NCBI GenBank assembly: GCA_022496185.1
Contig: WTXG01000010.1
Span: forward strand, 310,001 to 374,000
Source: Multifurca ochricompacta
Lineage: Eukaryota > Basidiomycota > Agaricomycetes > Russulales > Russulaceae
Reading direction: 5' to 3'
DNA: 64,000 nucleotides
The first letter of the stretch is position 1. The number at the start of each line of letters is the position of its first letter. A program made the translations under genes and the position numbers. Below the pieces are notes generated by a model. The model was not told where the DNA came from. It ran no database searches and saw nothing but the letters and a program-made list of their open reading frames with translations. Below, in pieces: positions 32,930-56,271 of this stretch.

Positions 32930-32931
32930 TA

Positions 32932-34553
32932 CAGTGCCTCACAAAACTGAGTCAATGTTTTGCACTTTTGCACTGTTTGTTGAATATCACATCAGCCAAA
33001 ACAAATATAAACAAAGTCTTGGTGTACCATAAAAGGTACACGATAAGGGCTATGTAATGCAACAATAATTATGTAATTCTGATCAAAACCTGTGGAGCTA
33101 CACCCATTTCAAATTGGGGACTCATTGACTCAGTTTTGTGAGTGGGTATCAGAAATATCAGAATCTGATGCTCCACCAAATGTACAGCAACCAATCCTTA
33201 ATATATGGTTACCATAGTTATCTTAATATTGATGGGACCTGGAATAGAGCCATTTAAGCATGGTTTACATTCCCAGAATATTATAATTTCCCAATGCACC
33301 CCACCTCCTCTGCTCAGAAAGAAAATATCCTCTCTCTGGCCTCTGAAGGTCATTCCACTCACACTATTGCCTCCAGACTCAGCCTCAGCCAGTCCAGAGT
33401 CTCTAGGACACTCAGGACCCTCCTTACCAACCATCAGTCACCTCATTTTAGTCATCCTTCCAAGCTCTCTGCTACCTCTGAACATGCTATCATGATACAA
33501 ATCAGCACAGGAAAGGTTGCCAATGCTGTCCAGGCCACAAAGCACATCAATTCCATCATCCCCAACCATGTCTCTTCACAAACTGTGCACTGGGTTCTTA
33601 AACAACATTCATTCAAGGCTGTAACAAAGAAGAAAAGGCTACTACTCTCTGCAGTACATTGCAAGAAGCACTTAGCCCTTGCTTTGAAGTACCAAAACTG
33701 GACTATGGAGGACTGGAAGAGGGTGATTTGGTCAGATGAGACCAAAATCAACAGGTTTGGGTCAGATGCCAGTCCTGCACAGTCCACTCTTTGTACTTCA
33801 AAGCAAAGGCTAAGTGCTTCTTGCAATGTACTGCAGAGAGTAGTGGCCTTTTCTTCTTTGTTACAGCCTTGAATGAATGTTGTTTAAGAACCCAGTGCAC
33901 AGTTTGTGAAGAGACATGATTGGGGATGATGGAATTGATGTGCTTTGTGGCCTGGACAACATTGGCAACCTTTCCTGTGGTGATTTGTATCATGATAGCA
34001 TGTTCAGAGGTAGCAGAGAGCTTGGAAGGATGACCAAAATGAGGTGACTGATGGTTGGTAAGGAGGGTCCTGAGTGTCCTAGAGACTCTGGACTGGCTGA
34101 GGCTGAGTCTGGAGGCAATAGTGTGAGTGGAATGACCTTCAGAGGCCAGAGAGAGGATATTTTCTTTCTGAGCAGAGGAGGTGGGGTGCATTGGGAAATT
34201 ATAATATTCTGGGAATGTAAACCATGGTTAAATAGCTCTATTCCAGGTCCCATCAATATTAAGATAACTATGGTAACCATATATTAAGGATTGGTTGCTG
34301 TACATTTGGTGGAGCATCAGATTCTGATATTTCTGATACCCACTCACAAAACTGAGTCAATGAGTCCCCAATTTGAAATGGGCATAGCTCCACAGGTTTT
34401 GATCAGAATTACATAATTATTGTTGCATTACATAACCCTTATCTTGTACCTTTTATGGTCTACCAAGACTTTGTTTATATTTGTTTTGGCTGATGTGATA
34501 CTCAACAAATAGTGCAAAAGTGCAAAACATTGACTCAGTTTTGTGAGGCACTG
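32932..34553 (+). mobile_element. FB1, Tc1-derived palindromic (foldback) element
   Basis: 1622 bp flanked by TA (32930-32931 and 34554-34555), typical of Tc1/mariner. Left arm 32932-33714 (783 bp), loop 33715-33770 (56 bp), right arm 33771-34553 (783 bp). The arms are inverted copies, about 97% identical over the outer 220 bp by eye. Each arm carries the transposase 5' part: helix-turn-helix region (STHTIASRLSLSQSRVSRTL) and linker. Only the left arm plus loop reaches the first catalytic block (VIWSDETKINRFGSD). The rest of the DDE domain is absent. Copy-specific residues (SRVSR, LLTNHQ) occur in both arms. Inserted in Co1 gag. Confidence 0.93.
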
Positions 34554-34555
34554 TA

Positions 34556-34829
34556 AAGCTCAGCTGGAGATCAGAGATCTCCATCCCATTTTCCTTGAGA
34601 GTACTCCTCACATCCAATACACGCTGCAACTGGGGTCTGAATTGTTTGCCTTCCTCCAAGCAGAAGGAAGACACAGAACACCACAAGTTGTAGGTGGCCA
34701 TGCTACCTACTGAGCCATAGAGCAATTCCAAATGCTCATACTTGGCATTGACAGAAGGGTAAGTTCTGTCAGAGGCAATTTGGGAGTATGTTTCTGGTGA
34801 TGTTACCATCACCAGAACTCCCATGAGGA
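34556..34829 (-). pseudogene. gag: Co1 gag middle fragment
   Basis: Minus-strand SPETYSQIASD... LELLYGSVGSMATYNLW... STLKENGMEISDLQLSF, copia Gag between the N-terminal KLDGSNW block and the LPPSYN block. It is cut on one side by FB1 and on the other by S3. Confidence 0.82.
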
Positions 34830-34834
34830 CTTCC

Positions 34835-35347
34835 TGTTGACACAGGACATGTCTGGAGGTGCTTCAGGCATCTAAGGTTCGCTTCAGCTGTAGATTAGAT
34901 TAGATTAGATTTCGGAGTATCGGACTTTTTATGTTATCTTTATTACATTTCTTTCTCTCCTTACTCAGCTGATTAGTGATGGACTTAGTAATGTGCAGTA
35001 AGCATGTGATATCTCCTTGGCCAATGGCCATTATCCCTCTCTGTTTATTGTCCAGCACTTGTGGACTTATTCCCAGTGTGCACAGACCATTTCCCCTGGC
35101 CCCCATGGGTATATAAGGGTGTCTGTTTTGTCCTTTACACTTCAGAGTTCTTCTTCCTCTGAAGTGTAAGTTGTCTTTACTTTACTCTCTACTTTTCCTT
35201 TGACTAACATTCTCTGTGTAGTTAACTTGTCTTTTAGGTCAGTAGAATAGTATTATAGAGTTCTTCTTCCTCTGAAGTTTAACTTGTCTTTTAGCCTAAC
35301 ATGCTACTAACCACAGTCAGTATAACCAGCAGCATGATTGTTTGACA
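34835..35347 (+). repeat. S3 solo LTR (copy 2)
   Basis: 513 bp, TGTTGACACAGG to TGTTTGACA, with perfect CTTCC duplications (34830-34834 and 35348-35352). GTATATAAGGG near 35108 is followed about 35 nt later by the hairpin ACACTTCAGAGTTCTTCTTC..TCTGAAGTGT. GATTAGATTAGATT microsatellite near 34892. Confidence 0.9.
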
Positions 35348-35352
35348 CTTCC

Positions 35353-35594
35353 TCCACTCTATTCCACTCCAGGTACATAGGCTCTGACCAGAGTGCAAAG
35401 CGCTTGGCGTACTTGTCATCCTTTTCTCCATCTTCTGGCTTGGGTGGATTCAGGAATTCAGGGGCATCATGAGTAATGTGCCTCTTCATCCCATTTATCC
35501 TCAGCAAGGCAGTGAAGGACACTGACCACTGCTGCCAATTGGAGCCGTCAAGTTTGTCGAACTTGAAAGTGGGAGGGAAGACGATGGATGACAT
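35353..35594 (-). pseudogene. gag: Co1 gag N-terminus
   Basis: ATG at 35594 on the minus strand. FKFDKLDGSNWQQWSVSF and ALLRINGMKRHIT are the diagnostic start of copia Gag. The downstream part is cut by S3 at 35353. Confidence 0.86.
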
Positions 35595-35804
35595 TGAGAT
35601 GATTTTAAAAAAAGGTTGATCCTGGTTCCAAGGAGCAGTTAGAACCAGTTGTCCAGGTCTCATTTAAGAGGGCCTGTCCAATCTGTGGTGCTATGCTTCA
35701 GAACTTAAAAAGTCCTGCCTCTGATGTGCGACTTCTAAGTAGTATAGTAGGCTGTCTAGCACCATCTACAACAAGTCCTAAGCCCACATCAGGGGGACAT
35801 TGTG
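35595..35804 (-). other. Co1 5' leader and probable LTR start
   Basis: Non-coding sequence directly upstream of the Co1 gag start, interrupted by FB2 at 35805. It should hold the primer site and part of the 5' LTR, but I could not find convincing LTR termini or a tRNA match. No gene seen. Confidence 0.4.
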
Positions 35805-35806
35805 TA

Positions 35807-37428
35807 CAGTGCCTCACAAAACTGAGTCAATGTTTTGCACTTTTGCACTATTTGTTGAATATTGCATCAGTCAAAACAAATATAAACAGAGTCTTGGTAT
35901 ACCATAAAAGGTACATGATAAGGGTTATGTAATGCAACAATGATTATGTAATTCTGATCAAAACCTGTGGAGCTATGCCCATTTCAAATTGGGGACTCAT
36001 TGACTCAGTTTTGTGAGGGGGTATCAGAAATATCAGAATCTGATGCTCCACCAAATGTACAGCAACCAATCCTTAATATATGGTTACCATAGTTACTTTA
36101 CTATTGATGGGACCTGGAATAGAGCTATTTAACCATGGTTTACATTCCCAGAATATTATAATTTCCCAATGCACCCCACCTCCTCTGCTCAGAAAGAAAA
36201 CATGCTCTCTCTGACCTCTGAAGGTCATTCCACTCACACTATTGCCTCCAGACTCAGCCTCAGCAAGTCCACAGTCTCTAGGACACTCAGAACCCTCCTT
36301 CCCAACCATCAGTCACCTCATTTTGGTCATCTTTCCAAGCTCTCTGCTACCTCTGAACATGCTATCATGATACAAATCACCACAGGAAAGGTTGGCAATG
36401 CTGTCCAGGCCACAAAGCACATCAATTCCATCATCCCCAACCATGTCTCCTCACAAACTGTGCACTGGGTTCTTAAACAACATTCATTCAAGGCTGCAAC
36501 AAAGAAGAAAAGGCCACTACTCTCTGCAGTACATTGCAAGAAGCACTTAGCCTTTGCTTTGAAGTACCAGAAATGGATTATGGAGGACTGGGAGAGGGTG
36601 ATTTGGTCAGATGAGACCAAAATCAACAGGGTTGGGTCAGATGCCAGTCCTCCATAGTCCATTTCTGGTACTTCAAAGCAAAGGCTAAGTGCTTCTTGCA
36701 ATGTACTGCAGAGAGTAGTGGCCTTTTCTTCTTTGTTGCAGCCTTGAATGAATGTTGTTTAAGAACCCAGTGCACAGTTTGTGAGGAGACATGGTTGGGG
36801 ATGATGGAATTGATGTGCTTTGTGGCCTGGACAGCATTGCCAACCTTTCCTGTGGTGATTTGTATCATGATAGCATGTTCAGAGGTAGCAGAGAGCTTGG
36901 AAAGATGACCAAAATGAGGTGACTGATGGTTGGGAAGGAGGGTTCTGAGTGTCCTAGAGACTGTGGACTTGCTGAGGCTGAGTCTGGAGGCAATAGTGTG
37001 AGTGGAATGACCTTCAGAGGTCAGAGAGAGCATGTTTTCTTTCTGAGCAGAGGAGGTGGGGTGCATTGGGAAATTATAATATTCTGGGAATGTAAACCAT
37101 GGTTAAATAGCTCTATTCCAGGTCCCATCAATAGTAAAGTAACTATGGTAACCATATATTAAGGATTGGTTGCTGTACATTTGGTGGAGCATCAGATTCT
37201 GATATTTCTGATACCCCCTCACAAAACTGAGTCAATGAGTCCCCAATTTGAAATGGGCATAGCTCCACAGGTTTTGATCAGAATTACATAATCATTGTTG
37301 CATTACATAACCCTTATCATGTACCTTTTATGGTATACCAAGACTCTGTTTATATTTGTTTTGACTGATGCAATATTCAACAAATAGTGCAAAAGTGCAA
37401 AACATTGACTCAGTTTTGTGAGGCACTG
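35807..37428 (+). mobile_element. FB2, Tc1-derived palindromic element
   Basis: 1622 bp flanked by TA (35805-35806 and 37429-37430). Left arm 35807-36589, loop 36590-36645, right arm 36646-37428 (783+56+783). Both arms share private variants: GAATATTGCATCAGTC near the ends and the translated changes LTSEGH, LSKSTVSR and FGHLSKL. The loop reads VIWSDETKINRVGSD. The breakpoints are the same as in FB1, FB3 and FB4. Confidence 0.93.
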
Positions 37429-37430
37429 TA

Positions 37431-37607
37431 AATAGATGGGGAGTCATGTCATGGAGGAGCCAACCGCAAGTTCCACTAGAGACAAAGGGTATAGAGCCCT
37501 TCCTCTAGTGCTGGTGGTGGAGTCCATGATTAAGCCCTAGATGATTGGGGCCATGACTATAGTAGACTATTAGGTTTCCTCTGGTTGGGGCGAACCCCCA
37601 ACAAAGG
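37431..37607. other. Non-coding sequence, possibly Co1 LTR continuation
   Basis: Between FB2 and the solo gypsy LTR. No ORF, RNA or repeat recognised. It probably continues the sequence left of FB2 at 35595-35804. Confidence 0.3.
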
Positions 37608-37612
37608 CAGCG

Positions 37613-38206
37613 TGTTACAAACCCTACCATCCACTCCTATTTTCTTCACTCTCCCCAATGATGACCCCTCCTTACCTCCTACCCTACACTTCCTGATCAC
37701 GTCTCCATCCTGGGACCCATCCTGTGCCCTGCTTCCGTCCCATGATCCCCTTTGTACTTGTTGACTCACTGTTTGCTTATGCTTGGACCCTTATCTCATT
37801 ATTCCTTATCTCCTTATCTCTAAGACTGGACACTTACTTAATACCCTATCAGAAGCCAGGCTTTATGCCCTCTGCTTTCGTATATTTGGGCCCACTTGAC
37901 TCCGTATCCTTATCTTGTAGATGCCCACTGCTTTACATATATAAGTCCACTGTAGCTACCCTGTAGACCTCAGACTCGACTTATTGAATACATCAGTGCC
38001 TGTCTTCTGGACATCCCCTTTGATCCTTTAAAACCATTTGTCTCAGTGCTTCTGGCACTCTCCGCTCAACATTGTCATAAGGGACAGCCCCTTTGACTTT
38101 GACTCACCTCACCCGAACTCTGGAAGGGCCTTATTGGTCCTCCACTAGAAACCACCGATTGAGCTGTCACACAAGTCGTGTGGAACATCCCGCACTGGAC
38201 ATAACA
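37613..38206 (+). repeat. Solo gypsy LTR (Gy family)
   Basis: 594 bp, TGTTACAAACC to ACATAACA, with perfect CAGCG duplications (37608-37612 and 38207-38211). It carries TATATAAG and ACTCGACTTATTG like the Gy LTRs and is closest to the Gy2 LTR type. Formed by LTR-LTR recombination. Confidence 0.92.
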
Positions 38207-38211
38207 CAGCG

Positions 38212-38743
38212 GGTACTTCTGCCCAGAGACAAAACCTTCTAGCTACTGTGTAAATACTATAGTAGTTCAAGCCTACTTGTATCAAGCCCAAGCGTCATGG
38301 GAGTGACTACCCATGCCTTGTTCTAGACCCTAAACTCTACCAGCAGGTCGCTAAACCTGGCTTATGGATTGAGCCAAGCATTGACTGAACCTATAGCCTC
38401 AAGCCTTTTGGGCAAGTGGCCTACTAAGACTATGGATGGGACGAAAACCCAGCTATAACTAAGAATACTATTTACTTAGAGCGCACATGAGGAACTTAAG
38501 GTGTTTCACCCACTTAGGGTCCCTCATCACCTCTTGCAAGAATCCCCTGAGGGACTAGCCAGACAGATCAAGATGGGCACATAAAGCACACCATCTTGTG
38601 GACAGTTAAGGGCAAGAGAATAAATCAAAGCTCACTGTGACTGTGATTGGGAAAGTGAAAGTCTTTAAGCAGTGAGCTTGAAGAAAGGTTGGACTGATCA
38701 AAAGAAAGAACAGATCAGTAAAGCATGCCCAGGGCCCATAACC
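38212..38743. other. Unassigned non-coding stretch
   Basis: About 530 bp with no ORF over 60 codons, no repeat pair and no homology to other parts of the window that I can see. It could belong to a copia leader or LTR, or to host spacer. Confidence 0.3.
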
Positions 38744-39240
38744 TGTTGAACAGGCATGAGGCGCAGCATACTGACTGTAAGGTTAGCAGGTTAAGCTAGA
38801 ACAAGTTATACTTCAGAGGTGAAGAAAACTCTATATTACTATACTACACACCTAGAACAAGTTATCTACAAAGACGGTTAGTTATAGGTAAGGTAGTAAG
38901 TAGAGAGACTGGGACTTACACTTCAGAGGTGAAGAAAACTCTGAAGTGTAGGAGACGAAACAGACACCCTTATATACTCTTCAAGGGATGGTCTGTGCAC
39001 TGGGAATAAGTCCACAAGTGCCGGACAAAGTCCAAACAGTAAACATGAGGGAGAAAGGCCATTGGCCATTACAGAAATCACATGTTACATGGTGCATCAG
39101 TCAGCTACTGCAGAATGTGAGAAAGAAAGTAATAATGATAATGTAAAAAGTCCGAAACTCCGGTATCTAATCTAATCTACAAGTAGCTAATCTAATCACC
39201 TGATGCCTGAAGCATCACCGAACATCTTCTGTGTTCAACA
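38744..39240 (-). repeat. S3 solo LTR (copy 3), flanks not matching
   Basis: 497 bp, plus strand TGTTGAACAGG to CTGTGTTCAACA (9-bp inverted termini). TATATAAGGGTG on the minus strand near 38975 and the ACTTCAGAG hairpin mark it as S3. The flanks TAACC and GTCAT differ, so no target duplication is visible; one side may have been lost. Confidence 0.82.
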
Positions 39241-39428
39241 GTCATGACCATTGTGACTTGTTATGATATCATTTGTACAAGACTCTAGACTATGACTTCA
39301 TAGTAGCTACAGTGTATTTAAGGACTGCAATAAATCTAAGGACAGACTAAGTCTGTTCTCCTTGTACCAATCAAAGGTCCTTAGGAAGTCCCTTCAGCCC
39401 TCTTCCAAGATGTGACTTGAGAGGGTTT
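39241..39428 (+). repeat. S5 LTR-like sequence, left part
   Basis: Plus strand GTATTTAAGGACTGC near 39313 is followed about 25 nt later by the hairpin GGACAGACTAAGTCTGTTC, the same layout as S4. It is split from 40918-41132 by S2. The left end is not defined. Confidence 0.5.
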
Positions 39429-39491
39429 TGTAACGGGTGAAGCTCTGTGTACACTCAGGAGAAAGAAGGGCAAAAGGAAAGTGACCTAAGT

Positions 39492-40069
39492 TGTTACGAA
39501 CCCCGTCTCTCCCTGTTTTCTTTTTCCTACCCAACGACGACCCTTCCTTGCCACCCACCCTCCACTATCAGATCACATCTCCATCATGGGACCTGTCACA
39601 TGCTCTCTGTCCATCCCCGTGACTCCTCCATTTGCTTATGTTTGTTCACTGTTATCTTTGCTTATCGTTTATCTTCTTATTGTATGACCGGACATTTACT
39701 TAATTCCCTATCAGTAGAAGCTAGGCTTTATGCCCTCCGCTTCCAGATATTTGGACCCACTTGACTCCGTGATCTTTATCTATAGACACTCACCTCTTTA
39801 CATATATAAGCCCTCTGTAGACTACAATGTAGACCTCAGACTCGACTTATTGAATACATTGGTGCTTGTCTTCTGGACTTCCCTTTGCTCCCTAAGGCCC
39901 AGTTGTCTCAGTGCTTCTGGCACTTCCTGCTCACCATCATCTTAGAGTGCAGCCTCTTTGACTTTGACTCGTCATACTTCACTCCAAGGGATCTGATTGG
40001 TCCCTTATCTGAACCCACGTACCGCGCTGTCACACAAGTCATGTGGAACATCCCGCACCGGATGTAACA
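39492..40069 (+). repeat. Solo gypsy LTR nested in S2
   Basis: 578 bp, TGTTACGAACCCC to GATGTAACA, with perfect TAAGT duplications (39487-39491 and 40070-40074). Closest in sequence to the Gy6 LTR (TGTTACGAACCCCGTCTC, pre-TATA and ACTCGACTT segments). Confidence 0.92.
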
Positions 40070-40182
40070 TAAGTCGTTGGGCGTACTGCGGAGGCAAACG
40101 TCATGCGTTAAGTAATGACAGGGACCTGTGTCACCCACTGTGGTTTTGCAACCACGATGACGGCGTCTGAAACCCAAAGAAA

Positions 40183-40280
40183 CTGCAGCCCCAAGAGGAC
40201 AAGATCCAAAGGATCGAGTCACACAGGGAGGCAGGATATCATTAGCACTATGTATTGAACTCATGTAGACAGTTACTCAC
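40183..40280 (-). other. Candidate intron in S2 copy 2
   Basis: 98 nt with the same donor CAG|GTGAGTAAC, branch-like TGCTAATG and acceptor CTGCAG as 18207-18303, despite other substitutions between the copies. Confidence 0.45.
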
Positions 40281-40922
40281 CTGCAGCCCCAAGAGGACAA
40301 GATGGGGGCTACAGGCTGTTACAGGGGGTCTTATATACATTTCTCAGTGTATGTGGTAAGCAGTTGGTATGTAAGCAAGAATCAGCAAGTATCAGTCAGC
40401 TGTATTGCTGACTGAGCCTTATCTTTGTGATTTGTAAGCTGCTTTACTCTGCTGACTGATCATGCTCCACAGTGTGATGTCATAATGACATCACTGTGGA
40501 GTAGATAACTGATATGTAGTCTAGCCCTTTGGTCTGGAACACATCTATCTACTGATACATATGAAACTGTGCTAAAATTGGCTGTGGCCCAACCTGGGCC
40601 CTTATCTAGAGCTCCACTTACCTAGAACCTTCTAGGCTGGACTCCTCTTATCTTGATAACAGCTCCACTTGGTCTAGAACTGTCTAGACTGTGGGGCCTT
40701 GCCTATTGTGGTAAACACAATAGAGAATCGACTTGTTATTGTTGAGTGGCTCTTGTGCTGACTAAGCAGCATGTGACTATTACATGTGACTCGGTCACAT
40801 GATCCATGTCACGACTACATTCCCATGATCACGTGTTGAGACTGCTGGGTAATCTTCCCACGGTCATGTGATCTAAAAGGGAGAAAAGAAAAGGAAAAAT
40901 AAAATAGAGCCATGACAGGTTT

Positions 40923-41132
40923 GGCTCACCAGTGGCTCCAGCAAAGGCTCTTGCCTTGCTATCTGAATACCCTGACTTCACACGCAATGTTCAGACTCGT
41001 TGCCTTGATCCATACCGGCTGCACGCTGTGATGTCTTGACCTGACTTGACACTTCTATCTCTTGACTGCCTTGATTGACTCTGACCCGAACCCAAACCGA
41101 CGCACGCCAAAGGACCTGTGTGTGACAGAAAG
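40923..41132 (+). repeat. S5 LTR-like sequence, right part
   Basis: Non-coding, rich in CTTGAC/TTGACC words like the S4 3' part, ending GTGTGTGACA at the junction with Gy5 gag. Probably the U5 end of S5. Confidence 0.45.
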
Positions 41133-41263
41133 CATCATCCCTCCTTCATGAGGGTTTTCTTTTCATCATCAGTGAGTGCTGCACGTGCTTTAGTGTGGTC
41201 TGCCGAGGTGTCCATGGCATTGGGGTCTCATGAAGCTGTAGGTTTTACTCCAAATTCCACCTT
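41133..41263 (-). pseudogene. gag: Gy5 gag fragment before the knuckle
   Basis: Minus-strand FGVKPTAS.DPNAMDTSADHTKARAALTDDE then MKEG.CF, the Gag segment just before the CCHC knuckle. It continues 49363-50510 after removal of Gy4 and is cut by S5. A TGA replaces a codon in MKEG.CF. Confidence 0.82.
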
Positions 41264-41844
41264 TGTTACGACTAGGGCCCAGCAGCCCTATTTTCTTTAC
41301 CCTTCCCAACAGGGACCCCACTTGCCCACCAACGCTACACTTCCTCATTACCTCTCCCTCCTGGGACCCCTCACATGCGTTGCTCCCATCCCCATGACTG
41401 TTGTTTGGACTTGTGTACTTACTATTTGCTTATGCTTGCTCCCCTTATCTTCTTATCACTACAATTGGACACTTACTTAATTCCCTATCAGAAGCCCAGC
41501 TTTACGCCTTACACTTTCATATATTTGGGCCCACATGACTCCGTCTCCTTATCTCATAGATGCCCATTCGATTACATATATAAGTCCGCTGTAACTATGA
41601 TGTAGACCTCAGACTTGACTTATTGAATACATCAGTGTTAGTCTTTCGGACTCCCCTTTGAAACCTCTGACTTGGTTGTCTCAGTGCTTTCAGCACTTCC
41701 TGCTCAACATCGTCATTAGGGAACAGCCCCTTTGACTTTGACTCATCCATCTTAAACTCCAAGAGGTCCTATTGGCCTCTTATCTGAACGAATGAACAAC
41801 ACTGTCACACAAGTCATGCAGAACGTCTCACACCGGACGTAACA
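41264..41844 (+). repeat. Gy4 5' LTR
   Basis: 581 bp. The self-primer segment reads AGACTTGACTT here (CpG decay) but AGACTCGACTT in the 3' LTR. The primer site after the LTR reads AAGTTGAGTCT. Confidence 0.93.
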
Positions 41845-41863
41845 TCAAGTTGAGTCTCTCACA

Positions 41864-44019
41864 GTGGCTTCCAGCCGCAGTCAGACCCTCTTCTGGGAAG
41901 AACTCATCGAGCACAGAGACGAGAATAATCTTTCACAGCAAGTACTTGGCTCTGCCACCTGGAAAGACTTTGAATCCAAGTTTGGATACTACATCTATCA
42001 TGACAGAAGATACCAACCGGTAGAATACGACGACGAAAAGAGAGTTTGGTATCGTATCCAATACTCGGACTGTCACAGCCAGGTCTCTGCTGTGTCAGTC
42101 ATCGTTTCAAGCTGCAGGCCCACAAGATACAAGAGGGGCACATGTCGATTCAAGGTGTCAAGGCAAACCACAAGGGCCACGTTCAAGGTTCAAGGCCCAC
42201 ACAAAGCAAGAGGGGCACACGTGCAAGAAGCGAGTTGAAGCAGAGGCAATAGGCCCTGCTAGAGGTTCTGGGGTGAAGGCTTCCTAAGTTGCAGCTTAGG
42301 AAGTTCAAGGGGATTCTGGTGAAGAACAGTAGACCTGTATTAGATACAAGAGAACAGACTTAAAGTCTGTCTCTCCAGTGTGTCCTACTTAAATACAAGT
42401 ATTCTAGTGTCTTTGTAAGTAAAGTAGAATGTAGTATAGTAAATATACATGTGAATCTCTAGTGGGAACTGAAGCAGGAATTGTAAGTGGTGTTGCACCC
42501 ACTCCAAAAGCAGATCAGTGTCAATCAAGTCAGTCCGAGGAATTTAGCGATTAGATAAGAAAGATCCATCAGCTCCAGTCACATGACTCAGAGTGAGAAG
42601 TGTTGAAAATGTTGAAACAAAAGTTGAACACGCGTGGGTCAAAAAACTGTCACAAGCACGTCACAAACATGTCACAAACCGTTACATCGACAAAAAGTGT
42701 CACACAGACAGCCGACACTCTTGGGTCACTACAGGACCCACCCCACCTGAATTTGGACTTGGCCCGTGGAGAGAAAACCCTCTGGCCATCGTCACGGACT
42801 CTGAGCCAGAGGAGTACATAGAAGAACCCAGCGAAGGAGAAGCACCAGCATTAGCAGCAACTACGTTTCCGGTTGCACCCGCAGTTGTCATGTTCAGAGC
42901 CCCTGCTTTGACAACTCCCCAGATATCAATACAATCCACGAACACCATCACCCCATCCCGTCTACCCATGTCTACCATTGCCACCCAACTCCCAGACCCT
43001 GCCCCACCAGCCCCTGTGGTGGCACCACCACCAAACATCCCCCCCCCCTCCAGACGGTTGTCAGGAGTGTTGCCCCAAATGTTCACTGGGGATCGTTCAC
43101 AAAGCAAGAAATTCATGTTGGAGTTCACGACATTCAAGAACTTCAATCATGATGTTCCACAGATTGTTAACCCATTTCAATGTGCCAATCTGTTTCTTTC
43201 CCTAATCTGAGGAGATGCAGTGGATGACTGGACAATGGAACAACTAGAATGGTTGAACGAGCAGATTGAAAGTGGGCATTGAACCACAAGTGAAGGTCTT
43301 TGGGAGACCATAGCCGAGAGATTCAAGGATGCCTTTACAGATGGGCAGGCCAAACAGAAAGCAGCCCGGGAATTGAAGTCCCTCAGAATGGAGAAGGGAG
43401 AACTTGATGCATATGTAGCCAAGTTCAGAAGTTTGGCCAACAGGGCCAGCTATGACACAGATGAAGAGGCGACATTAGACCTCTTCTCGCAAGGACTACC
43501 CAACCCACTAGTCAAAAACATCATTCAGTTTCACCACCCTCATGATTGGGACAGTTGGGTCAATGCTGCTCGGTGAAAGCAACAAGACTATCTTGACTTC
43601 CAGACGCAATTTGGAGTCGATACCAAGAAGGGAAAGACCTGAGACCAGTGGAAGACGGCCTTTGGGTAAAACCCACCCAGCATACCCCACAGGATCCAAA
43701 TGCCATGGATACCTCTGCAGATCGGGCCCGGGCTCGAGCAATGCTTACGGAGGATGAGCAGCAGACTCTAATGAAGGAAGGGTGCTGCTTCCGTTGTAGA
43801 GCGCTCGGGCATATGTCCCGAGACTGCCCCAAAAAGGGAGTACGAGTCGCCACTGCCACCATAGCACCAGAACACCCTGTTCAGAATAACCCACCCACTG
43901 TGGATAAGCGGTCAAAAGAAGAGAAGGCTCAAGATATATGGGCCAACATGATGAAAGAAAGTGAGGAAGTGCGCACCATATTGGTGGAAAAGGTGTTTGC
44001 AAAGAAGGATTTTTGTTAG
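41864..44019 (+). pseudogene. gag: Gy4 gag (broken, interrupted by S4)
   Basis: Starts GTG GCT TCC at 41864. It is split after 69 codons by S4 (42071-42704) and resumes at 42710 with SRHSWVTTGP. Gag core, then the CCHC knuckle CFRCRALGHMSRDC. Stops: TGA 43208-43210 (same Arg codon as in Gy1), TGA near 43281, 43574-43576 and 43640; one-base loss near 43668. Ends GAT TTT TGT TAG at 44017-44019. Confidence 0.88.
42071..42704 (-). repeat. S4 solo LTR (copy 1)
   Basis: 634 bp, plus strand TGTCACAGCC to AAAAAGTGTCACA, with flanks CGGAC (42066-42070) and CAGAC (42705-42709), a duplication with one CpG-type change. TATTTAAG-type box and the hairpin AGACTTAAAGTCTGT near 42355 on the minus strand. Homologous to 58447-59186 in opposite orientation. 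Confidence 0.85.
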
Positions 44020-47000: not shown

Positions 47001-47486
47001 TGAAGGCAACAGATCTTATTGAATAACCTTTGAAATTCACACCTTATCGACTAATGAGCAGGTTTGGCTGGAAGGGAAGCATATCCACACATCACATCCC
47101 ACAGCTAAACTGGCACCCCACGTCACAGACCCTTCAGAATCACGAGGAAGTTATTGGATGTGTCGTATGAACTCAAACTCCCTCCCACATGGAAGATTCA
47201 CCTGGTGTTCCATGCTAGACTTCTGACACCATACAAGGAAACATCCATTCATGGGGAAAACTTCCCAAGACCCCCACTGGAGTTAGTTGACGGAGAAGCA
47301 GAATGGGAGGTGGAGCAGATTGTAAACTCCACCTATCGAGGCCAAGGGTGCAAACTACATTACCTGATCAAGTGGAAGGGTTTCCCAGACTCTGACAATT
47401 CGTGGGAACCAGCCGGGAATATCTTTGCCCCAGATCTGATCATGGAGTTCCACTTACGACACCCCCAAGCACCCAGGAATGATTAA
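44007..47486 (+). pseudogene. pol: Gy4 pol (heavily broken)
   Basis: Protease (ILVDSGATDNFIHP near 44150), RT with YMDDILVAT near 45180, RNase H (EVDASHFANGAVL), integrase HHCC finger and D,D,E core, GPF module and chromodomain (LHYLIKWKGFPDSDNSWEP near 47360), ending 47484-47486. Frameshifts near 44570, 45165, 45480, 45725, 46330, 46600 and 47020, and TGA at 45151 and 45980. KLRPVQDY keeps its Arg codon (CGG). Confidence 0.9.
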
Positions 47487-47556
47487 AAGGGGAGCAGACT
47501 TCCAATTTCTTTCCCCAGAACAACGCTCCCCAGCAACGTCCTACTCTTACAATAAC

Positions 47557-48750
47557 ATGTCTTCTTCCTTCATCGCTGCCTCTGCCACCGTCGACGCTTT
47601 TGCCACCACTCATGTGGTAGTGGAAGCTTTCCCCTCTGCTCACCCCTCTACTTGTCCCTCTTCCCCTATTGACTATGAAGCCGCTGAAGAACGAGTCAAG
47701 GCCCAGTCGCCTAACCCCAACGACGACTTTACCCACTCTGAAGAACCCCACCCAAACGACCTCCTTGACATGGACCAAGACGACGATGTACCCGAATTCC
47801 CCTTTTTTGCCAATAACCCAAATTCCTCCATGTACTTCCCCCTCGAGATCACCATGGCCGATGGAGAAAAGGTCATAGCTAAGTACATCTTTTACACCAA
47901 CAGAGGAATGGATGTTGCAGGATGTATGAAGAAGGATGGGCCCGTCTATGGAGCCCCGGTTTACTTGGAGGAACAGTACACAGGCCGTCTTCACCACACG
48001 ATGAGTGATGAGCAATTGGGACACCTTGCGGCTGACGACCCTTGAGCATTTGCAATCAACGAGGTATTGAACAACATGCAACTTCCGTGTCTCAAGGCCA
48101 AAGTGATGAGACTGCAGAAGACCCTTACACTTCGCACCACACTCAATACCCAGTACAAAGAATATGCAAAGCAAATGACAAGACTCACGAGAGGGATGTT
48201 CCAAGTGGAGCAGGAGTTGACGGAGATCCGGAAAAGGTTGGAGATAGGGGATGCATATCAGACAATTGCCGAGAGGTATGCAGACACATATGCGCAACCC
48301 CTCCCCCCACGATCACTAGGTGTGGCACCACAACTGCTGCCAAACCGATTCGAGATGCCACGAATGCACGAAAACCCCCAAGGGGAGACTTGCTGGCGAT
48401 GTGACAGCAAGTATCACATTAGCTGGAATTGCCCACTCAATCGCAAGTGGTGCCATCATTGCCAAAGCAACCAACATTGGAGTCGGTTCTGTATCTTCCA
48501 ACGACTGGGCGTTGCTCCCACCATTGTCAACCCTTCAGGATGGTGTGGAAAGTGCCTGCAACATAACGTGGGACATCGTGAACTTGACTGTCCAGTCTAC
48601 AACTTGTGTCGCCAGTGTGGATGACATGGCCCATACGGCTTCCTGCACACACACCAATGCGCAGCCGATGAAACGTACACCATAGGGGATCGAAACCTGG
48701 CAGACGATTATGTGGACCTGGTGCAGGATGATGATGGTGCGCATTTCTAG
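47557..48750 (+). pseudogene. Gy4 ORF3 (two or more stops)
   Basis: ATG 70 nt after the pol stop, TAG at 48748-48750. All ORF3 landmarks are present: acidic N-terminus, YTNRGMDVAGCMKKDG block, coiled coil (LKAKVMRLQKTL... MFQVEQELTEIRKRLE), knuckles CWRCDSKYHISWNC, CHHCQSNQHWSRFC and CGKCLQHNVGHRELDC. TGA at 48043-48045 and in CRQCG.HGPYG (near 48622). Only 2-3 disabling changes over about 398 codons. Confidence 0.86.
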
Positions 48751-48781
48751 CTGGGTCAGCTCGAACCAGAAGGGAGGGTGA

Positions 48782-49362
48782 TGTTATGACTAGGGCCCAG
48801 CAGCCCTATTTTCTTTACCCTTCCCAACAGGGACCCCACTTGCCCACCGACGCTACACTTCCTCATTACCTCTCCCTCCTGGGACCCCTCACATGCATTG
48901 CTCCCATCCCCATGACTGTTGTTTGGACTTGTGTACTTACTATTTGCTTATGCTTGCTCCCCTTATCTTCTTATCACTACAATTGGACACTTACTTAATT
49001 CCCTATCAGAAGCCTGGCTTTACGCCTTACACTTTCATATATTTGGGCCCACATGACTCCGTCTCCTTATCTCATAGACGCCCATTTGATTACATATATA
49101 AGTCCGCTGTAACTACGATGTAGACCTCAGACTCGACTTATTGAATACATCAGTGTTAGTCTTTCGGACTCCCCTTTGAAACCTCTGACTCGGTTGTCTC
49201 AGTGCTTTCGGCACTTCCTGCTCAACATCATCATTAGGGAACAGCCCCTTTGACTTTGACTCATCCATCTTAAACTCCAAGAGGTCCTATTGGCCTCTTA
49301 TCTGAACAAATGAACAACGCTGTCACACAAGTCGTGCAGAACGTCTCACACCAGACGTAACA
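48782..49362 (+). repeat. Gy4 3' LTR
   Basis: 581 bp, TGTTATGACTAGG to GACGTAACA; the self-primer segment AGACTCGACTT is intact. Confidence 0.93.
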
Positions 49363-49367
49363 ACCTT

Positions 49368-50510
49368 CCACTGATCTCAGGTTTTCCCCTTCTTGGTATC
49401 CATGCCAAAGCATGTCTGGAAATCCAAGTAGTCCTGCTGCTGTCTCCTGGCAGCATTGGTCCACTGGCCCCACAATTCAGGGTGATGAAATTGGATGATG
49501 TTCTTTACCAGGGGGTTGGGCAATCCCTGGGAGAAGAGGTTGAGCATTGCCTCTTTGTTCACATCATACCCTGCTTGTTTGGCCAGGTTGCAGAATTTGG
49601 CTACATATCCATCCAAATCCCCTCTTTCCATTTTCAGGCTTTTCAGCTCTCTGGCAGCCTTCTGTTTGGCCTGCCTGTCCATGAAGGCATCTTTAAATTG
49701 TTGCACCACTATATCCCATAGATCCTCATCTGTGGTCCTGGTTCCAGCTGTGATCCTATCATTCAGCCATTCTATCTGCTCCATGGTCCAGTCATCCATG
49801 GCATCCCCTCTGATGAGTGAGAGGAAAAGGTTGGTGTGCTGGAAGGGGTTGACAATCTGCAGGACATCATGGTTGAAGTTTTTAAACATCTCAAACTTGA
49901 GCATGAACTTTTTGCTCTGCGAATGGTCACCAGTGAAAGTGGTTGGCAGGACTCCCATAAGGTGTCCCAATGGGGGAGGGAGGTTCGGTGCTGGAACAGC
50001 TGGAGTGGGGTTGGGTAACTGTGCGGCGATGGTGGACATGACTGGGTAAGTGATGGTCAGGGTGTCTGAAGTTTGTTGTATAATCTGAGGAGAGACCAAA
50101 GCAGATCTACTGAATGTGGTACTCTCAGGTGCAACTGTTGGAGCTGTAAGACTAGTGGCTATGATTTGTGTGTCTTCGCTGCTTTCTTCAATGTATTCTT
50201 CAGTTTCTGAATCTGTGATGATGGCTGGAGGATTCTCTCTCCAAGGTCCTAAGCTGTATTCTGGTGGGGCAGGTCCTGTGGTGACCCAGGAACAGTGACT
50301 TCTAGAGTAACAGATACAGTACCAGACCTGTTTCTGTTTGTCATATTCAACTGGCTGGTACTGGTCATCGTGATAGACATAGTATCCAAACTCAGTTTCA
50401 AAATATTTCCAGATGGCAGAGCCAAGGATCTGTTGTGAAAGATTATCCTCATCTCAGTGGTCGATAAGTTCTTCATTGTGCAAAGTCTGGCTTCAACTAG
50501 ATGAAGCCAT
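49368..50510 (-). pseudogene. gag: Gy5 gag (diverged gypsy)
   Basis: Minus strand from ATG at 50510. Related to but clearly diverged from Gy1-4 Gag (QSKKFMLKFEMFKNFN, NPFQHTNLFLSLIRGDAMDDW, GLPNPLVKNIIQFHHPELWG). TGA replaces Arg in the N-terminal ERRDE segment. It stops at the Gy4 insertion and continues at 41263. Confidence 0.85.
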
Positions 50511-50531
50511 GGTGGGGGAGACTCAACTTAA

Positions 50532-52750
50532 TGTAATGCCTGGTGCAGGCATTCAGCACAACATGTGATGGAGTCACATAGTGTAACTACAAGTTCAAGT
50601 GTACACTGTCTTCCAAGCATATGGAGTTCAAATGAGAAGTCAACACCAAGGAGCTAATCCCTTAGTGCCAGTGAGTGGAAGAGTGCCAGAAGCACTGAGA
50701 TGATTCAAGAGTTGGGTCTTTAGAGATCACCCAGAAGGTAATGCACCAAGTTGATTAAGAAGTCGAGTCTAAGGCATACAGGGCTATCTAAGCAGGCCTT
50801 ACAGTGCCTCACAAAACTGAGTCAATGTTTTGCACTTTTGCACTGTCTGTTGAATATCACATCAGCCAAACAAATATAAACAAAGTCTTGGTAGACCATA
50901 AAAGGTACAAGATAAGGGTTATGTAATGCAACAATAATTATGTAATTCTGATCAAAACTTGTGGAGCTATGCCCATTTCAAATTGGGGACTCATTGACTC
51001 AGTTTTGTGAGGGGGTATCAGAAATATCAGAATCTGATGCTCCACCAAATGTACAGCAACTGATCCTTAATATATGGTTACCATAGTTATCTTAATATTG
51101 ATGGGACCTGGAATAGAGCTATTTAACCATGGTTTACATTCCCAGAATATTATAATTTCCCAATGCACCCCACATCCTCTGCTCAGAAAGAAAACATGCT
51201 CTCTCTGGCCTCTGAAGGTCATTCCACCCACACTATTGCCTCCAGACTCAGCCTCAGCCAGTCCACAGTCTCTAGGACACTCAGAACCCTCCTTCCCAAC
51301 CATCAGTCACCTCATTTTGGTCATCCTTCCAAGCTCTCTGCTACCTCTGAACATGCTATCATGATACAAATTACCACAGGAAAGGTTGGCAATGCTGTCC
51401 AGGCCACAAAGCACATCAATTCCATGATCCCCAACCATGTCTCTTCACAAACTGTGCATTGGGTTCTTAAACAACATTCATTCAAGGCTGTAACAAAGAA
51501 GAAAAGGCCACTACTCTCTGCAGTACATTGCAAGAAGCACTTAGCCTTTGCTTTGAAGTACCAAAACTGGACTGTGGAAGACTGGTATCTGACCCAAACC
51601 TGTTGATTTTGGTCTCATCTGACCAAATCACCCTCTTCCAGTCCTCCATAGTCCAGTTTTGGTACTTCAAAGCAAAGGCTAAGTGCTTCTTGCAATGTAC
51701 TGCAGAGAGTAGTGGCCTTTTCTTCTTTGTTACAGCCTTGAATGAATGTTGTTTAAGAACCCAATGCACAGTTTGTGAAGAGACATGGTTGGGGATCATG
51801 GAATTGATGTGCTTTGTGGCCTGGACAGCATTGCCAACCTTTCCTGTGGTAATTTGTATCATGATAGCATGTTCAGAGGTAGCAGAGAGCTTGGAAGGAT
51901 GACCAAAATGAGGTGACTGATGGTTGGGAAGGAGGGTTCTGAGTGTCCTAGAGACTGTGGACTGGCTGAGGCTGAGTCTGGAGGCAATAGTGTGGGTGGA
52001 ATGACCTTCAGAGGCCAGAGAGAGCATGTTTTCTTTCTGAGCAGAGGATGTGGGGTGCATTGGGAAATTATAATATTCTGGGAATGTAAACCATGGTTAA
52101 ATAGCTCTATTCCAGGTCCCATCAATATTAAGATAACTATGGTAACCATATATTAAGGATCAGTTGCTGTACATTTGGTGGAGCATCAGATTCTGATATT
52201 TCTGATACCCCCTCACAAAACTGAGTCAATGAGTCCCCAATTTGAAATGGGCATAGCTCCACAAGTTTTGATCAGAATTACATAATTATTGTTGCATTAC
52301 ATAACCCTTATCTTGTACCTTTTATGGTCTACCAAGACTTTGTTTATATTTGTTTGGCTGATGTGATATTCAACAGACAGTGCAAAAGTGCAAAACATTG
52401 ACTCAGTTTTGTGAGGCACTGTATATACATAATAGAGGTTGGAGTCTAAATCGGAGTGAAGTACTCAGCGTATCAACAAAGTCATAATATAACTAAAAGG
52501 GGAAACAGGGCCAAAGTGGGTCAGATGAGAATATACCAAGATGTATTCGGTATAGTCATGATTCTGGTGGGAAAATACGTAAGAGTCCTTGTGTAATATA
52601 TGAGTCATAGATAAGCACAGCCTGGGTCAAAGATAAGGAACAAACAGGTACAAAGGAAGCATAAACATGATCAACAGAAGTCAAGCTGGGCCAAACAATG
52701 AAGCACATGATGCAAGGAAAAAGAAAGACAATGTAGCAGGGTTCATAACA
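50532..52750 (-). repeat. Gy5 5' LTR, split by FB3
   Basis: Plus strand TGTAATGCCTGG to GTTCATAACA; about 597 bp without FB3 and its TA. It keeps the AAGTCGAGTCT segment near 50760. The primer site next to it (GAGACTCAACTTAA) shows one CpG-type change. Confidence 0.8.
50802..52421 (-). mobile_element. FB3, Tc1-derived palindromic element
   Basis: 1620 bp flanked by TA (50800-50801 and 52422-52423). Arms 50802-51583 and 51640-52421 (782 bp each), loop 51584-51639 (56 bp) in the opposite orientation to FB1, FB2 and FB4, so the element is inserted the other way round. Private variants GTCTGTTGAATA, CCAAACAAAT (one-base deletion), AAAACTTGTGG and the translated INSMIPNH occur in both arms. Confidence 0.93.
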
Positions 52751-53464
52751 TCCATCCTTATGCGACAGGGCTGATCCAATAACCAGTGCATGGGTGCTGC
52801 TGCTGCCACCATCATGGATTTCCAGGGTGAATGGACAATGGAATGGTGCCATGGTACCAATGTGTCCTGTCACAAGGTCACCCTCTTTGGTCTGGTGCAC
52901 ACCATGTCTTGGCTGTGCGGCTTCCTTCATGGGTCCCCTCTGCCTGACCGTGTTGTGCTAATGGCCTCCTCCTCTGCCTCTCTCCTCTCTCTCCACTCCC
53001 ACGACCCCCATTGCTTTATGGGTGACTTCATTCTTTTCCAACACTCCCTTACTGACTTTCTTTCCTCCTTCCCAGCCACCTCCCTGGAGTTCATGTGGGT
53101 CCCTGGAGGTAAGTACTATCATGCCATCATGGCCTCCACAAAGGCTGCTGAGCATGCCTCCACCCACACTCCACTGGGTTTCCTGGACAAGAAACCGTTG
53201 CCCCTGCAGTGGCACACTCTCTCTCGCCTGCATGCCTACAACAACTGGCATGAGGAATGGCTCTGTGATCAGGCAGCTGCTGTGCCCACTGAGGACTCTC
53301 CTTCTGGCATGGATTTCCACACCTACTCCATCTCCATCTCCAAGCCTCCTAATGGCTCTAACCACCCACTCTGGATGGCTGCCACCTGCCGTTGTGAGGA
53401 CCCCTTCAGTCAACACACAACCTCCACTGCCATGCGCCTTGCCATGGGCCATGCTTTCATCTTG
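52751..53464 (+). pseudogene. L2, LINE ORF2 C-terminal fragment
   Basis: Homologous to the last third of L1 ORF2: RNase H-like start (GAAAATIMDFQGEW, GDFILFQHSLTDFL, LEFMWVP) then PLQWHTLSRLHAYNNWHEEWL, SGMDFHTYSISISKPPNGSNHPLW and TAMRLAMGHAFI. Clearly diverged from L1, so an older copy or a related family. TGA lies upstream of GAAAA. It is cut on the left by Gy5 and on the right by H2 before the C-x-C...H-x4-C motif. Confidence 0.82.
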
Positions 53465-53960
53465 GTAGTGATTGGCAGGGGTAACCCTGGGTAGGGCCTA
53501 GCACAAGTGCACTCGTGAGTTACCCGGATCCGAACTCGTGGGTATTTAGATTAGATAATCCCATACTCGGATCCGCATGAGTATGTTCCCACAGATCACC
53601 CAGAGCTGTGAGTCCTATACTCGCACGGATCCGAGTACTCGTGGGTATACTCATAGGTTTACTTGTAAGGTTTGAGGCAGCCAGAGATCTTCATCTTGCA
53701 TACACAGAAAGAATATATATATTACTACAATCCCATGAAGTTTCAAGTCAGATCATGCATCCGATCCAAAATAAAACAAGAATCAGTTACAATATCTATA
53801 GAAATGTGAAAAAATGCGAAAAAACACGAAAAAACATGAAAAAACACAAAGTGTGGGGCATGCCGATCGGACCGTGCATTGCCTTCCTATCTAGGAAGGT
53901 AGGCTTAAGAATGCACGCATCGGCACATGTCAGTACAGAGATGCCGGGATCACGCCTAAT
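53465..53960. mobile_element. H2, hAT-like element, left end
   Basis: Begins TAGTGATTGGCAGGGGTAACCC, the same terminus as H1, followed by clustered GGATCCG/ACTCGTGGGTA words in both orientations and a CCTTCCTATCTAGGAAGG hairpin near 53882, paralleling the H1 hairpin. No transposase frame. The right end is not found; similar GGATCCGCATGAGTAT words at 60060-60195 suggest the element extends past the nested insertions into Gy6. Confidence 0.55.
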
Positions 53961-54413
53961 TGATAAGATCAAAAACGTGTTCACAATTAATTAGATACTT
54001 AGGATATACATCTAAGTGATAAGATCAAAAATGTGTTCACAGTTAATTAGATACTTGGGATATACATCTAATACAAGTGATAAGATCAAAATGCGTTCAC
54101 AATTAATTAGATACTTGGGATGTACATCTAAGTGATAAGATCAAAAATGCATTCACATTTAATTAGATACTTAGGATATACATCTAATACAAGTGATAAG
54201 ATCAAAAATGCGTTCACAATTAATTAGATACTTAGGATGTACATCTAAGTGATAAGATCAAAAATGCGTTCACAATTAATTAGATACTTAGGATGTACAT
54301 CTAAGTGATAAGATCAAAAACGCGTTCACAATTAATTAGATACTTAGGATGTACATCTAAGTGATAAGATCAAAAACGCGTTCACAATTAATTAGATACT
54401 TAGGATGTACATC
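53961..54413. repeat. 56-bp minisatellite, left block
   Basis: About eight head-to-tail copies of GATAAGATCAAAAACGCGTT + CACAATTAATTAGATACTTA + GGATGTACATCTAAGT (56 bp; some units 61 bp with an extra ATACA). Variation is mostly CGCG/TGCG/CGTG in the unit. Split from 56036-56271 by FB4. Confidence 0.93.
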
Positions 54414-54415
54414 TA

Positions 54416-56035
54416 CAGTGCCTCACAAAACTGAGTCAATGTTTTGCACTTTTGCACTGTTTGTTGAATATCACATCAGCCAAAACAAATATAAACAAAG
54501 TCTTGGTAGACCATAAAAGGTACAAGATAAGGGTTATGTAATGCAACAATAATTATGTAAGTCTGATCAAAACCTGTGGAGCTATGCCCATTTCAAAGTG
54601 GGGACTCATTGACTCAGTTTTGTGAGGGGTATCAGAAATATCAGAATCTGATGCTCCACCAAATGTACAGCAACCAATCCTTAATATATGGTTACCATAG
54701 TTATCTTAATATTGATGGGACCTGGAATAGAGCTATTTAACCATGGTTTACATTCCCAGAATATTATAATTTCCAAATGCACCCCACCTCCTCTGCTCAG
54801 AAAGAAAACATCCTCTCTCTGGCCTCTGAAGGTCATTCCACTTACACTATTGCCTCCAGACTCAGCCTCAGCCAGTCCACAGTATCTAGGACCCTCAGAA
54901 CTCTCCTTCCCAACCATCAGTCACCTCATTTTGGTCATCCTTCCAAGCTCTCTGCTACCTCTGAACATGCTATCATGATACAAATCACCACAGGAAAGGT
55001 TGCCAATGCTGTCCAGGCCACAAAGCACATCAATTCCATGATCCCCAACCATGTCTCTTCACAAACTGTGCATTGGGTTCTTAAACAACATTCATTCAAG
55101 GCTGTAACAAAGAAGAAAAGGCTGCTACTCTCTACAGTACATTGCAAGAAGCACTTAGCCTTTGCTTTGAAGTACCAAAAATGGACTATGGAGGACTGGG
55201 AGAGGGTGATTTGGTCAGCTGAGACCAACATTAACAGGTTTGGGTCAGATGCCAGTCCTCCACAGTCCACTCTCTGTACTTCAAAGCAAAGGCTAAGTGC
55301 TTCTTGCAATGTACTGTAGAGAGTAGCAGCCTTTTCTTCTTTGTTACAGCCTTGAATGAATGTTGTTTAAGAACCCAATGCACAGTTTGTGAAGAGACAT
55401 GGTTGGGGATCATGGAATTGATGTGCTTTGTGGCCTGGACAGCATTGGCAACCTTTCCTGTGGTGATTTGTATCATGATAGCATGTTCAGAGGTAGCAGA
55501 GAGCTTGGAAGGATGACCAAAATGAGGTGACTGATGGTTGGGAAGGAGAGTTCTGAGGGTCCTAGATACTGTGGACTGGCTGAGGCTGAGTCTGGAGGCA
55601 ATAGTGTAAGTGGAATGACCTTCAGAGGCCAGAGAGAGGATGTTTCTTTCTGAGCAGAGGAGGTGGGGTGCATTTGGAAATTATAATATTCTGGGAATGT
55701 AAACCATGGTTAAATAGCTCTATTCCAGGTCCCATCAATATTAAGATAACTATGGTAACCATATATTAAGGATTGGTTGCTGTACATTTGGTGGAGCATC
55801 AGATTCTGATATTTCTGATACCCCCTCACAAAACTGAGTCAATGAGTCCCCACTTTGAAATGGGCATAGCTCCACAGGTTTTGATCAGACTTACATAATT
55901 ATTGTTGCATTACATAACCCTTATCTTGTACCTTTTATGGTCTACCAAGACTTTGTTTATATTTGTTTTGGCTGATGTGATATTCAACAAACAGTGCAAA
56001 AGTGCAAAACATTGACTCAGTTTTGTGAGGCACTG
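54416..56035 (+). mobile_element. FB4, Tc1-derived palindromic element in minisatellite
   Basis: 1620 bp flanked by TA (54414-54415 and 56036-56037). Arms 54416-55197 and 55254-56035 (782 bp), loop 55198-55253 (56 bp). Removing the element and one TA restores the repeat ACATCTAAGTGATAAG exactly. Private variants GTAAGTCTGATC, TTTCAAAGTGGGG and STYTIASRL are in both arms; each arm also has its own one-base deletion. The loop reads VIWSAETNINRFGSD, so the first catalytic Asp is replaced by Ala. Confidence 0.94.
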
Positions 56036-56271
56036 TAAGTGATAAGATCAAAAACGTGTTCACAATTAATTAGATACTTAGGATGTACATCTAAGTGATA
56101 AGATCAAAAACGCGTTCACAATTAATTAGATACTTGGGATGTACATCTAAGTGATAAGATCAAAAATGCATTCACAATTAATTAGATACTAAAGATATAC
56201 ATCTAAGATAATACAAGTGATAAGATCAAAACACATTCACAATTAAATAGATACAAGTGATAAAATCAATT
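56036..56271. repeat. 56-bp minisatellite, right block
   Basis: About four to five further units, the last ones degenerate (AAACACATTC, AAATAGATACAAGTGATAAAATC). Confidence 0.9.

Follow-up and report, generated by a model that had tools for sequence, protein, structure and literature searches.

Among transposons built as palindromes, the closest described element is Tc6 of Caenorhabditis elegans, which Dreyfus and Emmons reportedly described in 1991 as palindromic, Tc1-related and non-autonomous, about 1.6 kb long and with a short loop. Sequence is also said to be passed between dispersed Tc1 copies, and Fischer, Wienholds and Plasterk are reported to have thought, in 2003, that this follows excision repair. 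The arms of human Y palindromes are kept nearly identical by conversion, and such arm-to-arm conversion is usually inferred from a few unique sex-chromosome palindromes. The arms of willow sex-chromosome palindromes are reported to be kept alike in the same way. A 64,000-nucleotide stretch of the genome of the basidiomycete Multifurca ochricompacta (GenBank assembly GCA_022496185.1, contig WTXG01000010.1, positions 310,001 to 374,000), referred to here as the window, contains four Tc1-derived palindromes, FB1 to FB4. The palindromic Tc1 copies of this genome have very probably been homogenised by one arm overwriting the other, with the ancestor and history proposed below.

By architecture, with two long inverted Tc1-derived arms around a short loop, these elements appear to be Tc6-like palindromes. 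The likeness, compared by description, lies in the palindromic, Tc1-related and non-autonomous organization, the size and the short loop, whereas host and sequence differ. Set beside Tc6, the fungal family offers one intact Tc1 relative, two arm types, part-converted copies and islands beside the loop, and the intermediates caught part-way would be the new part. Unlike the exchange between dispersed Tc1 copies, the transfer here is mainly within one copy, between its inverted arms; and whereas the human Y and willow palindromes are single chromosomal loci, the present ones form a dispersed mobile family with many replicates. Palindromic repeats of Anopheles gambiae have been described as transposon-like families without coding capacity (PMC3212995), and the passages of that paper that were consulted describe neither arm homogenisation nor Tc1 arms. 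In the open-licence literature on palindromic Tc1 elements and arm conversion, no title or opening of an abstract was recognised as describing such arm copying. A single genome here gives about 170 replicate loops, two marked arm types, both overwriting directions, intermediate tract ends and apparent loop flips, and tract length, polarity and the conversion-to-mutation ratio become measurable in a palindromic family.

The four palindromes had been claimed in an earlier reading of the letters alone (the sequence-only reading), and an inverted-repeat search of the window, which is part of contig C2 of the assembly (53.8 Mb, 605 contigs), recovered them at 32930-34555, 35805-37430, 50800-52423 and 54414-56037. 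Each is about 1,626 bp long and consists of two inverted left halves of a Tc1 element around a short loop, FB3 lying in the opposite orientation to FB1, FB2 and FB4. With the TA counted, the arms measure 787 or 786 nt and the loop 52 nt; the earlier sizes (783 or 782 bp around 56 bp) had the palindromes right and placed the exact boundary slightly differently. The features are given below, together with the intact Tc1 element of the genome, called the donor. Type A means donor-like, columns are those of the arm alignment, C-numbers denote contigs and L-numbers sampled genomic loci.

32930..33716, + strand: FB1 left arm, TA included; it carries the first (N-terminal) half of the frame of a Tc1 transposase
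33717..33768, + strand: FB1 loop, of the intact donor's sequence type, WSDETKINRFGSD
33769..34555, - strand: FB1 right arm, inverted, 97% complementary to the FB1 left arm
33780..33796 (approximate), - strand: FB1 donor-type (A) island in the right arm, adjoining the loop, not converted; three of four island markers donor-type
35805..36591, + strand: FB2 left arm
36592..36643, + strand: FB2 loop
36644..37430, - strand: FB2 right arm, one difference from the left arm, without a donor-type island
50800..51585, + strand: FB3 lower-coordinate arm, the right arm by loop orientation
51586..51637, - strand: FB3 loop, inverted relative to FB1, FB2 and FB4
51638..52423, - strand: FB3 higher-coordinate arm, the left arm by loop orientation
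54414..55199, + strand: FB4 left arm
55200..55251, + strand: FB4 loop, three changes from the family pattern
55252..56037, - strand: FB4 right arm, donor-type island kept at columns 764-776 (about 55262-55275)
C156:10514-12137 (= L012:1215-2838): intact Tc1 donor, 1,624 bp, with 229-bp terminal repeats that are 97.4% alike

Further copies, for which the sequence-only reading had suggested a search, are plentiful. The genome holds 370 matches to the element end (186 + 184; 28-base end, up to two mismatches) and 173 to the loop (75 + 98; 30-base loop, up to three mismatches), the donor and broken copies included, and reversed control patterns gave none in either search. On these counts the palindromic family appears to exceed 150 copies. 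The copies studied are the first 62, by contig order, among 100 listed loops of the 173, all of the 100 being free of mismatches; FB4, with three loop mismatches, came along, and L002, L004, L005 and L006 were added from a search with the FB1 arm. Both ends were present in 52 elements, one being the donor and six being set aside by length (1,549 to 2,232 bp), and 14 further sampled elements were without one or both ends. FB1 brings the set to 46 copies; L065 was left out because its arms are largely of the other type, and the remaining 45 served for the variant, tree, distance and half-gene statistics. Copies with donor-type arms come from a targeted search in which 40 of 214 candidates were scored and some taken, so they are not a random sample, and L079 (on C73), which is without a loop, was not used. 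The sampled complete copies have a common loop position, which supports the earlier proposal of descent from one palindromic ancestor.

In a tree of the eight arms of the window (columns 1-759) the arms pair by copy, not by side, which is the result that the sequence-only reading had named as support for homogenisation. The two arms of FB2 are identical in these columns, as are those of FB3, and support is 100/99 for the FB4 pair and 95/94 for the FB1 pair, with a weak deeper fork. The earlier observation of variants shared by the two arms of each copy is confirmed, with a reservation for FB1, which is poorly homogenised (16 single-arm differences in the outer 759 columns) and whose left arm has variants of the L002/L004/L005 group. 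The same pairing is found genome-wide. Among the 45 complete copies the arms of one copy are sisters in 42 (exceptions L034, L037 and L057), and there is no left/right signal, the mean distance being 19.93 for same-side and 19.94 for opposite-side arms. Over the outer 759 columns, the two arms of a copy differ at a median of 0 and a mean of 1.7 positions, and the between-copy mean is 19.9. In 41 of 45 copies each arm is strictly nearest to its own partner; 1000 permutations gave 0.9 such copies on average and never more than 5. Over all 788 columns and with L065 included the figure is 34 of 46, lower because the loop-side columns retain left/right differences. Relative to the consensus, 480 variants are present in both arms of a copy and 100 in one, and among private (single-copy) variants the counts are 128 and 37. 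Closeness to the own arm and tract boundaries, the two marks of concerted evolution through gene conversion between arms, are both found. If the arms are at steady state, the mean of 1.7 in 759 would correspond to a conversion rate per site about 900 times the mutation rate.

The inner part of the arm comes in two types, A and B (B being the common type among the palindromes), which differ at about one third of positions; 92 of the 101 marker columns lie at column 480 or beyond. Copies were found as B/B, A/A and A/B (left/right) and as step-like mosaics. Left arms of B/B copies remain B to the very end, and many right arms are B only to about columns 745-764 and donor-like after that. All four markers of this right-arm donor-type island (columns 764-769) are A in 21 of the 45 copies, and three of the four in 2 more; another 20 have the same non-donor island in both arms, and 2 are odd. 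The left-arm island reads KYQNW, as do outside B-lineage transposases (P0038, P0041, P0064 and P0050), where the donor has KYREW, and the same outside proteins read RIGSD where the donor and FB1 read RFGSD; from this comparison the B stretch of the left arm is taken to about column 769, and the loop is A-type. The island is a remnant spared by the overwriting. Each of the A/A copies with readable islands (L052, L076, L077, L078 and L081) has a B island in at least one arm.

Several copies show the two types meeting within an arm. In L080 the left arm is B save for scattered columns, and the right arm changes from B to A at about column 708; over the first 706 columns there are 2 differences between the arms (12 for the nearest other arm), and over the last 80 there are 26. 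In L065 the left arm is A, and the right arm reads A up to column 592, B over columns 610-757 and finally an A island, with 1 arm difference in columns 1-592 followed by 52/168. The right arm of L040 is A, and its left arm, which carries an insertion, is A to column 614 and B from 623; the arms differ at 0/182 compared columns in 411-592 and then at 51/156. Both arms of L077 are A, with 0 differences in columns 1-760 and a B-type island on both sides. L078 and L052 are A/A with a B island on the left and an A island on the right (the right arm of L052 also contains an insertion). L076 is A/A in its inner part, its islands are swapped, and its right arm aligns poorly outside column 480; L081 is A on both sides with a left-arm insertion and B islands. 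L074 and L075 are A/B, the left A arm having a B island and the right B arm an A island, an arrangement that would be the outcome expected from a flip of the loop and islands. In L064 the left arm is B, and the right arm is A over the 64 columns adjoining the loop and lost beyond them; this copy could be either the ancestral arrangement or a copy like L080.

That one arm is copied onto the other, as the sequence-only reading had argued, is borne out by the part-converted L080 and L065 and by the unconverted islands beside the loop. The sequences show copying in both directions and over hundreds of bases. Among the B/B copies, about half have a tract that ended roughly 20-40 bases before the loop, and in 20 of the 45 the loop-side zone was covered as well; in the three caught copies (L080, L065 and L040) the tract ended about 75-195 bases before the loop. 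The ancestor would have had a left arm with a B-type tract of about 290 bp facing an A-type right arm; B would have overwritten A in the lineage that multiplied and A would have overwritten B in a few others, and in L074/L075 and L076 the loop and islands would have flipped relative to the arms, as inter-arm crossover or template switching would do. One ancestor, B on the left and A on the right, followed by overwriting either way may be the simplest history; a direct join of two elements with a later B tract in one arm fits equally well. The likeliest pathway, put forward tentatively, is repair of a break left by excision or replication, during which the growing strand would switch to the wrong arm. 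Gene conversion in a cruciform, the other route named in the sequence-only reading, may also have done the copying. A somewhat more speculative possibility is that arm copying is coupled to excision of the element and repair of the break, and that the palindrome is a one-arm element regenerating its mirror half. Two repair strands would then start at both ends and join near the loop, and a converted outer part with the loop side left would mark them.

Arm copying by itself does not account for every copy, and some observations weigh against it. L078, an A/A copy, is not homogenised (arm differences of 12/229, 18/250, 9/113 and 14/168). In FB1 and L037, with 16 and 20 single-arm differences, the two arms come from different lineages, the left arm having variants in common with one group of copies and the right arm not; copies therefore also exchange sequence or were joined in assembly. 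Single-arm differences are commoner in the outer columns 1-100 than mid-arm (without FB1, L037, L055 and L059, 9/66 in columns 1-100 and 0/199 in 365-700), so the copied tracts do not extend to the outer end in every case. Identity between arms peaks mid-arm and falls off near both ends, as reads anchored in the flanks or loop could give if the assembler or read correction had collapsed the arms of each copy to one consensus. Such an artefact is improbable, with read correction across the palindromes keeping a small residual probability, since the same assembly resolves the single-arm differences of FB1 and L037, whole A and B arms at L074 and L075 (different sites with nearly the same arm pair), and, in L080 and L065, step boundaries that lie about 75-195 nt away from the loop; the window and the sampled loci examined are also without any N. 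The arms might instead be made alike in every transposition through folded-hairpin synthesis, a route raised in the sequence-only reading, and the residual differences beside the loop in L080, L065 and L040 are such as a snap-back strand would leave. This is unlikely and is contradicted by two pairs of sister copies: L074 and L075 have different flanks (40 bases per side) and the same unlike arms (2 differences between their left arms, 5 between their right arms), and L034 and L057, again with different flanks, have in common a variant at column 749 that is confined to the left arm. Copies therefore move while their arms stay unlike, and transposition and homogenisation are separable.

Matching arms within a copy would also result if each palindrome had formed separately from a different linear Tc1. 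This is scarcely credible given the common loop position of the sampled complete copies, many of them with the same island asymmetry, and given that the one intact full-length element shown by the family search is A-type inside, unlike the majority of the sampled palindromes, which are B-type; a step mosaic like that of L080 would moreover need two sources in one event. Selection could keep the arms alike if the half transposase were a repressor, or if hairpin RNA silenced the donor, and 33 of the 45 left arms have no stop in the half frame, while consensus columns 1-480 are about 98% donor-like. However, the 123 distinct changes in codons 1-131 of the half gene comprise 81 nonsynonymous changes, 35 synonymous changes and 7 stops, compared with a neutral expectation of 84.0, 35.2 and 3.8, and the frame is interrupted within these codons in 11 of the 45 left arms. 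The half gene thus evolves neutrally, so selection does not explain arm identity, and the half transposase was rejected as a selected product that causes it. Private neutral variants in both arms (the 128, against 37 in one) are likewise not made by selection, and this explanation is very improbable.

The full-length Tc1 relative that the sequence-only reading proposed to seek does exist. A Pfam DDE_3 search of the genome found one intact transposase frame, within the 1,624-bp element on C156, and two broken fragments. The donor transposase (338 aa) has D148, D240 and E275, with 34 residues between the last two (DD34E); these catalytic residues occur in the donor only, and the palindromes hold just the N-terminal half. 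Donor and palindrome consensus have 3 differences in the first 229 columns, 9 in the first 450 and about one third of positions different in columns ~480-750; the ends and gene start are therefore common to both and the inside is different. The element ends and gene start seem to have been exchanged as one module. The first 480 bp and the terminal repeats of the donor are about 98% like the palindromes, and its core about one third different. For a linear B-type element, the same search (PF13358) gave only the A-type donor and the two broken fragments, C574 and C14, which are 46-68% like both lineages, so the source of B was not found in this genome. The 120 matches listed for the half transposase include three from Astraeus odoratus, a fungus of the Boletales.

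All 48 of 48 elements have TA at both ends, partly by construction as the end pattern starts with TA. When the flanks of 49 elements (47 palindromes from the loci, FB1 and the donor) were joined, 31 had a spanning match elsewhere in the sampled sequence, and for 28 of the 49 an unoccupied copy of the repeat aligns across the join, no gap falling within 20 bases of it; the flanks of L002, for instance, are 97.4% like L058 over 302. Of these 28, 27 have a single TA at the join in at least one copy; the matches listed for FB1 read TG there. The unoccupied matches are empty sites, with TA as the target duplication, and FB1-FB4 are non-autonomous palindromic Tc1 derivatives. Their mobility presumably came from a transposase like the one encoded by the intact Tc1, with which they have their ends in common. 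Non-autonomy, high copy number and ends in common with an autonomous relative are also features of miniature inverted-repeat transposable elements (MITEs). MITEs are short, usually under 600-800 bp, and at about 1,626 bp the palindromes fall outside that size. The arms of Drosophila FB foldback elements are made of tandem sub-repeats. An assignment to that type was rejected, the only tandem array in the arms here being one of 22 bp, with an 8-bp unit, that occurs in both FB1 arms.

Inserts of 400-600 bp are found in one arm of L039, L040, L045 and L052. L016 and L069 look like a single locus that was duplicated, and the greater part of one arm is absent. FB4 is inserted in a tandem array whose units are spaced about 56-61 bp apart (window 53956-54420 and 56036-56254); this array also matches L005, L037 and L039. 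A 20-bp motif, CTCACAAAACTGAGTCAATG, lies near each element end (window 32938-32957) and again, inverted, about 185 bp inward (33123-33142). Sleeping Beauty-type ends carry direct repeats, unlike this inverted pair, which is present at matching places of each arm in the palindromes and in the donor.

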